Of a DNA stretch of 64,000 bases, positions 6,963 to 52,731 are shown piece by piece. Numbering within the stretch: the first letter of the stretch is position 1; every line of letters starts with the position of its first letter. A program made the position numbers and the translations under genes. The notes under the pieces are model-generated. The model was not told the DNA's origin. It did not search any database and saw only the letters and a program-made list of their open reading frames with translations. This stretch comes from Chitinophagaceae bacterium. Lineage in GTDB: Bacteria; Bacteroidota; Bacteroidia; Chitinophagales; Chitinophagaceae. The DNA is taken from positions 1 to 64,000 of the forward strand of contig CAHJWK010000008.1 of assembly GCA_903642275.1 (NCBI GenBank), given 5' to 3'.

Positions 6963-9900
6963 TTGGCTTTACCACATTTAATTAAATACATATACAATAA
7001 CGGAACGGATGAAGTTATCCGTCGTGGAAAAAAAATTTTCGCATCAGGTTATACTGAAATGATAGAGCATGATGTGCTGCTTGGCTCAATTACGTTTCGT
7101 GTACGGGATGATGCCTATAACACTTATTATAAAGTGTATATAAACCGTTATAATAATGTTCAGACTTTGTCACTACGCTGCAGTTGCCCGTATAATTTAG
7201 GCGATATATGCAGGCATGAAGCGGCAGCGTTGTTCCGTTTGCAGGAGATGGTTGATAATAACCAGTTAGGCGAAGAGCAAAGCGATTACAACCAGCAGCA
7301 CACGGTTGTAAAAATGAAGCAGCTTGAAATTCGCACACTGCGTTTACTTTCTGCGCCGGATGCCATACCAGAAGCTGAAAATTATTTGCGTGGCAGTAAG
7401 GCCAATATTCTTGAAGCGGCGAATGATGTTGTAAAAGCGGATTTAAATTTTGATAATAAAAATTATTCGTTGCTGATACGACGTAACGAGGAAAGAAATT
7501 TTGATACAAGCTGCAATTGCAACAGCGAAACAAAGCACCCGCTATGCATTCATAAAACAATTTTATTACTGCAGTTGCTAAACAGTTATGGCCCGGGATA
7601 TTTTGAAACTATCAGCAATAAAGACCGCGATAAAAACAAGTTGCTTGCATTGTATGGTTATTCAATGAATGATAATATTGAAGGCAAGTTTGAATTTACA
7701 TACCGCGATGGAAAGCCCTTTTTGCGTGTACTTGATCCCACCATAAAACGCGTTACTGCGCCTGCGGCTGAGACCAAAAAGCCTTTTTACATGCCGCAAC
7801 CACAAAAAGAAATTGTGGTTGAAGATAAAGCAGAAGAAGTATTAACCTATCAAAAGCTTGGTGTTGTTTTAAGATATGATGCGCAGCAATATCCATACGT
7901 TCAATGCGATGTTATAAAAGGTGAAGCTGATGAAGCTGCAAAACAATTCATTGAAAAAACAGAGCGGCTTGATTTAACCAAGTTTGTAAATACAGAAGAT
8001 GTTTCTGAAGATGATAAAATGCTGGTTCAAAACCTGCGCAAAGTATTGCCATCAGAAGTTACGAGATATCTTAACCGAAATTCGCCCTTTAGCGGCATTT
8101 GGGAGAACATTATTCAACAACATAATGAGGAATTGCATGAAGAAACACGACATCTTATCATTGAATATCTTCTTCCGAAATATAAAAAAATTTTTGCTGA
8201 TATAAGTGAAAGCAATTTTGCGTTTACACTGCCGGAAAAGAAAAGTTTCATAACGTCTAATCTGCGGCCTGCTGTTTTATCCAATCAATATATACAACCT
8301 CAATTTGCTATTGCTTTTAATGATGGCAGATATGAGGTAAGCTGCTTTGCAAAATTGCTGGATGCTGTTGTGCCGGTTGAAAAAAACAGTATTGCATCGC
8401 CACTGATTTTTAAATATGAAAATACTTTTTATCTGTGGCAAAACACGGAAGAAGTTTTGCTTGCAGAACGATTTTTAAAACGTGATAAAATTGTTGTGGA
8501 TGAAGATGATTGGAACAAACAACTGGTTGAATTTATTCTTCCGCTTACCAAAAAATATGATGTACAATTTAGCGGAATACAGAAAGAAGAATTGCGTAAT
8601 ATAAAGCCGGAAATGAAACTCATCATCAAAGAAAAAGGCGATTATCTTTTGTTTCAGCCTTTCTTTGATTATAATGGTTATGCCGTTAAGCAGGAAGATA
8701 AAGAACGCATTATGGTGCCAAGTGCAGGCAAGCTGGTTATCATTCACCGCAATGCAGAAGCGGAAAGAGTTTTAATTAAAAAGATTGAAAATTTACATTC
8801 ATCATTTATACATACAGATAGCGAAACACTTGCATTAAAAGGTAATGATGTTTTAAAGAACAACTGGTTCTTTTTATTTGCTGATGCAGTTAAGGAAATG
8901 AATGTGCCGGTGTATGGCTTTGATGCTTTAAAAAAGTTTCGCTTTAACACTGCAAAGCCATCAACAAAAATATACATAAGCAGCAACACAGATTGGTTTG
9001 ATGCAAAGATTGATATTCATTTTGGCGACCAGAAGATATCGGTTGATGATGTAAAAAAAGCATTGGCAAACAAGCAACAATTTGTGCCGTTGCAGGATGG
9101 AACACTTGGTATTTTACCAGAAGACTGGATTAGACGTTATTCAATGTTATTTGCTGTTGGAGAAAATAAAGCTGGCAACATTAAGCTTAGCAAATATCAT
9201 TTTGGTGTTATTGAAGAGTTGTATGCGCAGCGTAATGAAGAAGAACTATTTTTTAAACTGGAAGAAAAATATGAACGCTTAAAAGAACATCATACTGTAA
9301 AACAAATTGAGCCGCCACAACATCTGCAAAGTATATTGCGGCCTTACCAGGCTTCAGGTTTTCAATGGCTGAATTATTTAAGCGAAGTAAGCTGGGGTGG
9401 CATTCTTGCAGATGATATGGGTTTAGGCAAAACGGTTCAGGCATTATCGTTCCTGCATCATTTTAAGGCTACGTATAATAAATTAAGAGCGCTGGTTGTA
9501 TGTCCGACTACATTAATGTTTAACTGGGAAAATGAAATAAAAAAATTTACGCCTTCCCTAAAATGGTACATACATCACGGCAGCGGAAGAATGCAGCAAA
9601 TGGAATTGTATGCAAACACAGAAATAATTATTACTACATACGGAACGCTTCGCAGCGATATACAATTGTTTACAGCATCTGCATTTGATTATGTTATTTT
9701 AGATGAAAGCCAGGCAATAAAAAATCCGCAAAGCAAAGTAACCAAAGCCGCAAGTTTACTGGATGCAAAAAACCGTTTGTGCATGAGCGGAACACCATTA
9801 CAGAACAATACATTTGATATGTATGCGCAAATGAATTTTTTGAATCCGGGCATGTTGGGCAGCATGGAATTTTTTCGCCAGGAATTTGCTATACCAATTG

Positions 9901-25196: not shown

Positions 25197-25362
25197 TATG
25201 TATTATTTTTTGCACTGAATAAGATAAGTCTAAACCTCCACTTTCACTATACATTTACATTTTTACAATAATAAACCTGCATGATAGTTGTTATATCACC
25301 TTAAGAAAAAAATTTGCTATACAAAATTCTACACGTACAACCTTACTGCTAAATTAAAGTGT

Positions 25363-26118
25363 ATGAATGCTTATCTAAAAATTTTAATTGCAATCGTATT
25401 CGTGTTTGTTTTTTTATGTACTATAAATACAGTGCAGGCGCAGATTTCAAAAAATTATTTTGAGGTTGGTTTAGGTTTGGGTACTACTATTTACCAGGGC
25501 GATATTGAGGTGACCTCAGCGGGAAATTATAAAAGATTACGCCCGGCTTTAAGTATTTATGGCGGCAAATGGCTAAGCAAATATTTTTTAGTACAAGGCA
25601 GTTTTACGCATGGTGCAATAACGGCGTATGATGCAGATTGGAAAACACCGGCTTACAAACAATTAAGAAATTTAAACTTTCATACGTCAATAAATGAGGT
25701 AGATGCTCGCATTGTATTTAGCCCGTTTGGTAATGCTGCTTACACGCCGGATAAGCGCTGGTATCCTTATTTATTTGCGGGTGCAGGCATTGTATTCACA
25801 CATGTTAAGCGCAACTATAGTGGTATTGATTCTTCTTTTTTAACGGCTAAGAATATGGATAATCTTGCGCTTGATTCTGCGCATAAATTACCATCTGTTA
25901 TTCATTCTGTTCCGTTTGGTGCCGGTGTGCGTTATGTAGTGTCACCACATATTTCTTTGTTTGCAGAATTTGCTTATCACCTTCCTGTTACAGATTACCT
26001 GGATGGCTTTAGTTATATAGCCAATCCCCGGCAAAAAGATAATTATTACAATTACAGCATTGGTGTAAACTATACTTTTTTTAATAATGCCAGTAAGTGC
26101 CCGAAGGTGAAGCGATAA
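25363..26118 (+). CDS. DUF6089-like outer-membrane beta-barrel protein
   Basis: About 251 residues. I start at the ATG at 25363, which gives a clear signal peptide (NAYLKILIAIVFVFVF...VQAQ); the upstream in-frame start adds 25 basic residues without resemblance. The mature part opens with YFEVGLGLGTTIYQGDI, typical of DUF6089 barrels, continues with alternating hydrophobic strands (PYLFAGAGIVFTHV, PFGAGVRYVVSPHISLFAEFAY) and ends close to the terminal strand YYNYSIGVNYTFF. The family is Bacteroidota-specific with no established function. Confidence 0.8.
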   Translation: MNAYLKILIAIVFVFVFLCTINTVQAQISKNYFEVGLGLGTTIYQGDIEVTSAGNYKRLRPALSIYGGKWLSKYFLVQGSFTHGAITAYDADWKTPAYKQLRNLNFHTSINEVDARIVFSPFGNAAYTPDKRWYPYLFAGAGIVFTHVKRNYSGIDSSFLTAKNMDNLALDSAHKLPSVIHSVPFGAGVRYVVSPHISLFAEFAYHLPVTDYLDGFSYIANPRQKDNYYNYSIGVNYTFFNNASKCPKVKR

Positions 26119-26139: not shown

Positions 26140-26796
26140 TCAAAACCGCGTGCTTAACGAGAGAAAAATTGTATTCCTGTTTACGTTATTTACAACTGTT
26201 TGTCTTTTTATACTATTAAATGGAGTAATCTCCCATGAAAATTTATCAAACTGAAGTTCGTAGGCAAGTTTTAATAATAAAGAATTGCTTTTATTTTTTT
26301 TACAATTAAGCACTATTGCAAATGAGCTTACCGAGCCGCCTTTTTCAGTATAATACGAAGCAAGATTTTGCTTTTTAAAATCAAATCCTGTCTTTATTTC
26401 TGACTCAATAAAATGATTGCTGTTGATTTTAAACAGCTGAATGTTTATGCCAGCCTGTAAAGGCACTGTTACCTCCGTAAAATTTTCGCCGCCAAAACCT
26501 TGTTCGAGGTAATGAATGTTTATGCCTGATGAAATGCCTGCTTTAATTTTTTCTGATACCTGCCTCCATGCACCGGCACGAATTGCTATAACCGGCAGCC
26601 TGTATCTTTTGGCTTTAAATTCATCAACAACAAATCCCGGATTAATGGTTGAGTAATAATATTTAAAACTCGTTGGCCCGATTGAATTTCCAATTCCTCC
26701 ACCTATATCAAATTGATACTTGTTGCTTTGTGCAGCACTGGCATAATAAATTATTATGCATGAAATAAATATTGATATTCTGTAAAATGTTTGCAC
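26140..26796 (-). CDS. Outer-membrane beta-barrel protein, unknown family
   Basis: A 218-residue protein with a likely signal peptide (FYRISIFISCIIIYYASAAQ) and a start codon GTG at 26796. The mature part shows alternating amphipathic strands (KYQFDIGGGIGNSIG, VIAIRAGAWRQVS, AGISSGINIHYLEQGFGG) and ends in NTIFLSLSTRF, a terminal aromatic that is a barrel-insertion signal. It could be a PorT-like barrel, but I do not recognise a specific family. It is convergent with the preceding barrel gene and divergent from the FN3-like gene, with the 21-bp array in between. Confidence 0.65.
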   Translation of the reverse strand: MQTFYRISIFISCIIIYYASAAQSNKYQFDIGGGIGNSIGPTSFKYYYSTINPGFVVDEFKAKRYRLPVIAIRAGAWRQVSEKIKAGISSGINIHYLEQGFGGENFTEVTVPLQAGINIQLFKINSNHFIESEIKTGFDFKKQNLASYYTEKGGSVSSFAIVLNCKKNKSNSLLLKLAYELQFDKFSWEITPFNSIKRQTVVNNVNRNTIFLSLSTRF

Positions 26797-26890: not shown

Positions 26891-27058
26891 CCATGTTAAC
26901 AAACATGGCGGTGATGTTTACTATCTTTTGTTTCATGTTTACAAACATGGCACTCATGTTTACTAACTCAATGCTCATGTTTGCTATCATGGCGCTCATG
27001 TTTGCTAACTAAACTTCCATGTTTACTAACATGAGGCCCATGTTTACTAAATCAACCC
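26891..27058. repeat. Tandem array of eight 21-bp degenerate units (CATGTTTACnAACATGG type)
   Basis: Eight units of exactly 21 bp start at 26891, 26912, 26933, 26954, 26975, 26996, 27017 and 27038 with no gaps. Each begins with a near-invariant CATGTTT-like block; units 1, 3 and 7 continue into AACATG and so are palindromic (for example CATGTTT-AC-AAACATG). The other halves vary. The array fills about half of the 351-base gap between a beta-barrel gene and the FN3-like gene. The remaining gap (27059-27147) is AT-rich. Not a CRISPR: there are no spacers. Confidence 0.9.
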
Positions 27059-27147
27059 AAAAACAGGTATTTTTTAAAAATTTTGTGAAATATGTTAAAA
27101 TAATTAACTTTAACTGTCAATCAATTTTTTAATAAAATCTAATAACT

Positions 27148-27813
27148 ATGGCAAAGCTAATTGTAGTTCTTATGAACTGGATAAGGATGTCGCCCCTTCA
27201 AATGGCGGCGTTTGCGCACAACATTGCGGCAAAAATGTCTCCTCCTAATGTAAAAATTCCTGACTCTCCAACGCCGCCATTTACGCCTGCACAAATGGAT
27301 GATGCTTCCGACCGGCTGGAGCTGGCCTATGCTAACCGCATGAACGGCGCAGAAGCAAAAACAGAATTCGAGAATGCGGATACGGCACTGGACGGAATGC
27401 TGCATGATGATGCCGGGTATGTAAATACGGTGGCTGCCGGTAACAAAGTAATTATTGAAGCTTTTGGCTTTACGGCTACCAGCAACAGCCGCAATAAAGC
27501 AGTGGTGCCGGCGGTGCCTGTTGCGCCGGTTATAAGCGGTAACGCTTCGGCGGTGCATTTGCAAATACCTTCAGTGCCCGGTGCCGACAGTTATTGCTGG
27601 GTTATTTTTACCGGCGATGCAACCGTTGCCACTGTTGCCGAAACGCACATTGTGCTTTCGGGTGCAGCCATTGTAATACCAGACGGCACCACGCGGGAAG
27701 TTTTAAGAAACATTATACCGGCTGGCACAAAAATAAGCGTGCAGGTGCTGGCACAAAATACTGCAGGTAAAAGCGGCTTTAGCCCGCTGATTAGTTTTAC
27801 AGTGGGCAGTTAA
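27148..27813 (+). CDS. Fibronectin-III-like protein of unusual base composition
   Basis: A 221-residue protein without a classic signal peptide. An N-terminal helical part (SPLQMAAFAHNIAAKM...SPTPPFTPAQMDDASDRLE to GYVNTVAAGN) is followed by a C-terminal beta domain (VHLQIPSVPGADSYCWVIF...ISVQVLAQNTAGKSGFSPLIS) shaped like a fibronectin type III module. I recall similar two-part proteins in other Bacteroidota; their function is unknown. The gene is clearly richer in G+C than its neighbours: bases 27481-27540 contain 36 G+C of 60. This, and its position just after a 21-bp array, suggest different ancestry. Confidence 0.6.
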   Translation: MAKLIVVLMNWIRMSPLQMAAFAHNIAAKMSPPNVKIPDSPTPPFTPAQMDDASDRLELAYANRMNGAEAKTEFENADTALDGMLHDDAGYVNTVAAGNKVIIEAFGFTATSNSRNKAVVPAVPVAPVISGNASAVHLQIPSVPGADSYCWVIFTGDATVATVAETHIVLSGAAIVIPDGTTREVLRNIIPAGTKISVQVLAQNTAGKSGFSPLISFTVGS

Positions 27814-52472: not shown

Positions 52473-52527
52473 ACCTGATTTGTTCTAAAAACTACAATTT
52501 TTTGAATCTTTTTATTATTTCTTTACA

Positions 52528-52731
52528 ATATTGCCATGTTGTGACGCTACATTACAATATGTGGCGATTACATTGCCATGTTGTACCCACATATTGCAAT
52601 ATCCGGCGATTACATTACAATATCCGGCAACAACATTGCCATGTTCCGGCTCAACATTGCCATATGTGGCGACTACATTGCCATGTTCTGCTGCAATATT
52701 GCAATATGCGGCGGCTACATTGCCATGTAGT
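52528..52731. repeat. Tandem array of nine to ten 21-bp degenerate units (AYATTGCCATGTT type)
   Basis: Nine full 21-bp units start at 52528, 52549, 52570, 52591, 52612, 52633, 52654, 52675 and 52696, plus a partial tenth at 52717. Every unit begins AYATTRC, followed by CATGTT, AATATG or AATATC-like variants, then a G+C-richer tail (for example CCGGCGATT). Units 4 and 9 contain the perfect palindrome ATATTGCAATAT. The array fills most of the gap between exonuclease and ligase genes. No spacers, so not a CRISPR. Confidence 0.93.

Follow-up and report, generated by a model that had tools for sequence, protein, structure and literature searches.

Tandem arrays with a conserved 20–22-bp-series period and replaceable sequence recur upstream of FN3-like genes in Bacteroidota

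The window, by which we mean the whole 64,000-nucleotide stretch of Chitinophagaceae DNA analysed here, contains two tandem arrays of the same period and of unrelated sequence (table 1). Run on the window, TRF reports the first of these, the focal array, at 26892–27050 with a period of 21, 7.6 copies, 65% matches, 0% indels and a score of 101; at period 42 the score is 169. The identity of the array with itself is 0.63 at lag 21 and 0.75 at lag 42, and 0.23–0.26 at neighbouring lags. At these two lags the array scores 43 and 66; in 30 windows of 64 kb generated by a first-order Markov model the top score was 14. An earlier, sequence-only reading of this DNA had recognised the eight gapless units, but started them one base early (26891–27058). 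It had also set the array between a barrel gene and the FN3-like gene, which is right on the FN3-like side; on the other side the 218-aa gene intervenes. Among the genes flanking the array no Pfam match to a replication or partition gene was found, and Rfam matched nothing in the window apart from one tRNA.

Table 1. Features of the two array loci in the window.
Feature	Position	Strand	Basis and remarks
Barrel-type gene, behind the 218-aa gene	25288–26118		OMP_b-brl and DUF6089 matches
218-aa gene, adjoining the focal array	26140–26796	−	no Pfam match
Focal array, eight gapless 21-bp units	26892–27059	.	TRF, rows of 21, lag identities
Spacer between focal array and FN3-like gene	27060–27147	+	candidate promoter TTTG-N19-TAACTTTA
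FN3-like partner gene, 221 aa, no named family	27148–27813	+	helical bundle (~10–105) and C-terminal FN3 fold
Second array, same period, unrelated sequence	52525–52728	.	TRF, rows

How is the focal array built? The motif CATGTTT opens six of the eight units exactly. Units 1, 3 and 7 had been called palindromic, which is roughly right: with two arms of seven bases, unit 3 is a perfect palindrome (7/7), units 1 and 7 pair at 6/7 and unit 5 at 5/7, and the even units pair at 2–3/7. The fuller pattern is an alternation of 42 bp, in which near-palindromic odd units such as CATGTTTACTAACATG take turns with non-palindromic even ones. A wedge model predicts strong curvature (0.69 versus 0.88 for permuted columns). 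The sequence family of this array has two members, one in the window and one in contig C114, and the CATGTTT core was found in the genome only in this array and one other copy.

The second array of the window, which the earlier reading did not mention, has periods of 21, 42 and 105 bp, its unit resembling ACATTGCCATGT or ATATTGCAATAT with a GC-rich half added, and is predicted to be straight by the same wedge model. It sits upstream of a ligase gene, between it and a 367-aa gene that we take to be of the exonuclease/mRNA 3′-end-processing type. In the gap between these two genes, arrays are found in G000, G004 and G006. The two genes overlap or nearly abut in G001, G002 and G007, with no array; G003 has a different neighbour and no array, and G005 gave no ligase match. 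The arrays of G004 and G006, both purine-rich, bear a weak mutual resemblance (41 bits); that of G000 resembles neither.

Is this period a property of the genome at large? A lag scan of 464 kb gave seven segments each at lags 21 and 42, further segments at multiples of 21, and single segments elsewhere. Extended to 1.647 Mb (38% of the genome), the scan gave 26 segments at lag 21, 30 at 42, 23 at 63, 28 at 84, 15 at 105 and 14 at 126, other lags giving at most six each. Merging left 62 segments (two loci from outside the 1.647-Mb sample included), 44 of them in the 20–22-bp series and 18 not; 41 of the 44 were kept after the removal of three short or low-complexity segments, L006 and L112 lying outside the sample. 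The sample thus holds about 39 series arrays, which extrapolates to some 100 genome-wide if it is typical; its C28, C38 and C40 stretches include previously known FN3-like genes. Markov regeneration of 284 kb produced no arrays. The samples from relatives were poorer, with no array in G005 (49 kb) or G011 (100 kb) and one, of period 41, in G026 (32 kb), and array density therefore differs between species.

In comparisons among themselves at 36 bits or more, where the reversed control reached 26.5 at most, the arrays fall into nine small families and many singletons. Members of a family are about 67–87% identical and lie at unlike places and in both orientations. Iterons would share one common unit sequence; here, of 42 copies compared, 19 lack any relative at 36 bits, and the rest are the nine families. 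Nor did inspection by eye find a replication or partition gene beside any of the 41 arrays. The suggestion that the focal array is iteron-like is thus not supported, given the many sequence-unrelated arrays and the lack of a recognisable replication gene nearby. Array units are contiguous, rather than split by unique spacers as CRISPR repeats are.

Arrays that have no partner gene are not concentrated at promoters. By simple ORF-based gene calls, six lie in convergent, 14 in tandem and five in divergent gaps, and one is at the end of a stretch; the background counts of such gaps are 92, 411 and 189. Some follow closely on a stop codon, as at L040 (8 bp behind it) and L175 (overlapping by 10 bp). 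Their presence varies between species. The gap at tsf carries an array in the window's own genome and none in G007, the closest relative (92% Tsf identity), which has a terminator-like hairpin at that place; G004 keeps a hairpin behind tsf and adds an array of another sequence. In G141 no further array of similar sequence was found.

What is the partner gene of the focal array? The AF2 model of its 221-aa product has a mean pLDDT of 87.6 and a pTM of 0.53. The best 50 PDB matches listed are all FN3 domains; Pfam, NCBIfam and PHROGs gave weak or no matches, and no DNA-binding domain was recognised among the family and PDB matches. Homologues were matched in six of 59 genomes, its own included, and a profile search of 195 genomes of the same taxonomic family gave matches in 25. 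A second profile matched 107 of 296 genomes of the phylum, mostly via the FN3 part of large proteins. Among named genomes the closest relatives of the gene are in Bacteroidetes MAGs of BWOrgHeat isolates (JABDFS01, JABDGW01), whose name suggests that they come from soil.

To locate arrays beside these genes we scored the 700 bp upstream (array score at least 24; at least 400 bp of upstream sequence required). The set held 46 loci, less L139 and L141 with under 400 bp upstream; L017, L019, L023, L024, L029 and L031, shorter duplicates of the same genes, had been replaced, and L027, L135 and the phylum matches made mainly via the FN3 part of large proteins were left out. An array stands upstream in 39 of 44 loci (32 genomes), and all 39 have lags of the 20–22-bp series, which comprises 24 of the 119 lags scanned. 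The median distance from array to start codon is 132 bp (27–427), mostly 27–200 bp. Downstream of the same genes arrays occur in two of 43 loci, one of them in series, and at tsf, taken as a control, in none of 29 upstream and two of 29 downstream. In five FN3-like loci (L123–L127) the 700 bp show no clear array. The members of the set are not independent of one another, since nine come from the window's own genome and three (the window gene, L045 and L160) were first noticed by their arrays; omitting these three leaves 36 of 41. Loci outside the order include L195, of the same class, and L193, L194 and L197, of other Bacteroidota classes, the array of L193 being weak and 427 bp away. The array–gene units occupy unlike places in different genomes.

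Three observations on these genes may be recorded here. L078 and L080 (contigs C38 and C40 of the own genome) are FN3-like genes that look broken, with a truncated frame or internal stop, upstream of which arrays of one family persist. Beyond the 3′ end of the FN3-like gene of L016 (G001) lies a different tandem repeat (900–1391), of 95 and 148 bp and high identity. G106, a genome of the taxonomic family, holds unusually many copies, with 12 matches of the FN3-like family and 22 of the second partner family described below.

That second family, picked as a query because its member L240 (for which there is an AF2 model) has an array, consists of helical proteins, mostly with a carboxypeptidase-regulatory-like domain; PF13620 scored above cut-off in both proteins tried. 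Eighteen of 30 loci were used, the other 12 matching the C-terminal domain only. A series array lies upstream in 10 of the 18, or 11 once the ORF of L269 is corrected (array some 80 bp upstream), and downstream in two, or three counting any period. A different association is seen in L044 (18724–19515, own genome), a winged-helix-like gene with an array of 42-bp period inside its coding sequence (14-aa repeats), and in L153 (~8350–8640, own genome), a broken-looking relative of L044 that also overlaps an array. The L044 protein was considered as a general binder of arrays and dropped, because its matches among the 59 genomes are confined to its own.

If the arrays precede homologous genes, are they themselves homologous? 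We compared 48 gene-linked arrays with their proteins. The protein pairs L113/L138 (86% identical, same genome), L119/L121 (74%) and L240/L261 (73%, same genome) have arrays whose similarity is nil or at noise level. In L113/L138 an alignment of 801 bp at 84% takes in gene and spacer and breaks off no more than about 20 bp from the edge of the array. L241/L262 (70% protein identity) retains some similarity, at 50 bits; scores of 38–60 bits, with no reversed control for this set, also occur between a few arrays whose genes are less closely related and come from different genomes, L122/L160 highest. Although a quarter to a third of the positions vary among the units of an array, breaks of phase are few. 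Fitted by a ring model, 33 of 38 own-genome arrays (L044, L069 and L153 left out) and 42 of 48 gene-linked arrays are free of indels, at 1.2 and 0.8 indels per kb. In simulated arrays the rate is 4.6 per kb at an indel/substitution ratio of 0.05 and 11.2 per kb at 0.1, with 13 and 6 of 30 indel-free; the model penalises indels in real and simulated arrays alike and fits 41- and 43-bp arrays poorly. We conclude that conservation concerns the period (20–22 bp, usually 21 or 42, which is two turns of the helix or four) and the position rather than the sequence, and that the position is best conserved immediately before genes for small helical proteins, mostly with a beta-sandwich domain. Periods of this series with few phase breaks are what the helix register of a phased protein-binding array calls for. 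The earlier emphasis on spacing is supported, in that spacing rather than the rest is conserved: arrays of this period with other sequences recur through the genome and before homologues in other genera and classes, and indels are rarer than simulated. Its claim that the CATGTTT core is what survives in an old, drifting array is not supported: orthologues and paralogues have other units, and replacement of the entire sequence is the better fit.

The arrays have symmetry as well as period. Folded against column-permuted versions, 27 arrays gave mean z values of −1.90 on one strand and −1.73 on the other for 21 columns, and of −2.85 and −2.45 for 42. Excess self-complementarity is thus present in most arrays, as in palindromic intergenic repeats of the REP type. 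Seven (L032, L051, L072, L074, L022, L044 and L069) show little or none; L069, being intergenic, counts against the result. Covariation is weak (pooled z 1.6), and together with self-complementarity on both strands this suggests a unit consensus that is dyad-symmetric in the manner of DNA sites. Predicted curvature is heterogeneous, many arrays being straight: in the wedge model, 33 arrays (L044, L069, L153 and arrays under 126 bp excluded) have a mean end-to-end/contour ratio of 0.841 versus 0.884 permuted (mean z −0.72, s.e. 0.26). In the spacer of the window the candidate Bacteroidota promoter lies some 43 bp before the start codon of the FN3-like gene; the same motif occurs in the homologue L016, and a poorer version in the G002 homologue. 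Over the spacers of 44 loci, a scan with the promoter consensus did not rise above shuffles (z −0.8).

Why should a period be conserved when letters are free? Twenty-one bases are the shortest whole-base step that brings the helix back to the same face (two turns of 10.5). Any unit repeated at 21 bp therefore presents 8–20 like sites on one face, and its small bends add up whatever the letters; because repetition alone gives one-face sites and a coherent bend, the period can be kept and the sequence left free. That 21 bp is two turns, with cores on one side, was already part of the sequence-only reading and is the natural reading of our results too; the phased operator that it also named is a possibility. 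We favour, at somewhat less than even confidence, a helically phased element acting as DNA, as a same-face protein platform, a coherent bend or both, with a putative regulatory role. The array would work as double-stranded DNA, coated by a DNA-binding or -bending protein that reads symmetry, shape or phase more than sequence, and the coated platform or curve could control or insulate a promoter between array and gene. Gene-less copies might do their neighbours the same service, or be idle dispersed copies. A wider proposal we make more tentatively still: that the hundred or so arrays with replaceable letters may constitute a phase-defined class of DNA, regulatory or architectural in the chromosome, in which two-turn periodicity and local symmetry are what is read, and behind which helical-plus-beta-sandwich genes would regularly stand across Bacteroidota.

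Might slippage, conversion or a repair habit simply make neutral 21-bp repeats in gaps, the period reflecting the enzyme? Unrelated sequences, presence and absence between close species, and gaps of every orientation would follow from such an origin, but the place before particular gene families across genera and classes would not, nor would the dyad symmetry; the rarity of indels in such divergent units would need constant remaking. We judge it unlikely, though a serious contender. The helical-plus-beta-sandwich proteins suggest another possibility, that each binds its own upstream array and has gene-less arrays of the same sequence as further targets, as a regulator with its sites or in a RAYT/REP-like arrangement. 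Such cognate gene–array families looked attractive: families exist within the genome, in six of nine a member lies immediately before a partner gene, dyad symmetry of the units would suit a dimer, and a prediction for family F5 held, the L261 array matching at 118–119 bits. But chance alone yields as many as six (mean 5.8, P 0.60; for families with exactly one, 5 versus 3.9, P 0.35), and a test search for family F8 found no gene-linked member, which together tell against them. With unrelated arrays before 86%-identical proteins, and no DNA-binding domain recognised in the partner, cognate binding seems distinctly unlikely.

A role as RNA, in which transcribed arrays act as chains of hairpins (5′ leader control, 3′ protection or termination), would account for the self-complementarity, for the several gene-less arrays right behind stop codons and for the own-genome tsf array at the position of the G007 hairpin. 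It is improbable, given that self-complementarity is found on both strands with little covariation, that G004 keeps its hairpin alongside the array, that the distance to the start codon mostly leaves room for a promoter, and that the window gave no Rfam match except the tRNA. Dispersal of the arrays as mobile elements, alone or with a gene, is a little less probable again: recent paralogues keep gene and spacer in common but not the array, the opposite of joint movement; no transposase-like partner was recognised; and plasmid, phage and viral collections held no full-length copy of L121, the one FN3-like protein tried, partial matches covering 32% and 68%. What speaks for movement is that family members, and array–gene units in different genomes, lie at unlike places, the former in both orientations. 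That the arrays encode heptapeptide repeats (7 × 3 = 21) is very improbable indeed. In a set of 39 from which L044 and L153 were omitted, 21 have at least one stop-free frame and 18 have none in six, and variability is uneven by codon position (p < 0.05) in one, by a test that is weak, since L044, whose array lies inside an open gene, does not pass it (p 0.32); moreover, periods of 41, 43 and 44 are not multiples of three.

How do phased arrays read as DNA compare with known systems? Plasmid iteron and centromere arrays are repeated sites for Rep, ParR and TubR. They too are tandem, helix-phased sites upstream of a gene, but combine one site sequence with one protein, whereas here many unrelated arrays share a chromosome and no Rep or partition protein was recognised. 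Phased A-tracts and curved DNA occur upstream of promoters, and there also helical phase counts and sequence is flexible; our arrays differ in their two-turn period, the repetition of whole, often dyad-symmetric units not based on A-tracts, and heterogeneous predicted curvature. REP/BIME elements with RAYT resemble them as intergenic palindromic repeats in small families per genome with one gene partner, but here there is no RAYT-like (Y1 transposase-like) protein, the partner is helical with an FN3 or carboxypeptidase-regulatory-like domain, and the 21-bp period is strict. The arrays lack at least one defining feature of each of the iteron, REP/RAYT and CRISPR classes. Intergenic minisatellites and VNTRs are likewise tandem repeats in gaps, present or absent between species, but their periods are many, where these arrays keep to a single helical period, however unrelated their sequences, and have fixed gene partners. 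Among open-licence papers, a scope outside which most subscription papers fall, we found no description of such arrays. Helical A-tract periodicity is the topic of PMC3940949; passages of PMC12306157 describe no such arrays, and passages of PMC4210602 count 54 short tandem repeats for one Methylacidiphilum genome against few for a relative, giving no periods.

Cis elements are normally found through conserved letters. Here even paralogues of 86% identity have had the sequence exchanged, with period and position kept, and alignment would therefore miss the element. If the arrays act, one could study in them how DNA of a bacterial chromosome is recognised through its phase or shape, and use them to approach the unnamed gene families that follow them. 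Unnamed genes stand directly behind arrays at L050, L169 and L269; that of L050 (15332–16087, contig C20 of the own genome) encodes a 251-aa protein starting MPKQKGLIKIEG and is preceded by a short 14/21-bp array and a further short repeat.
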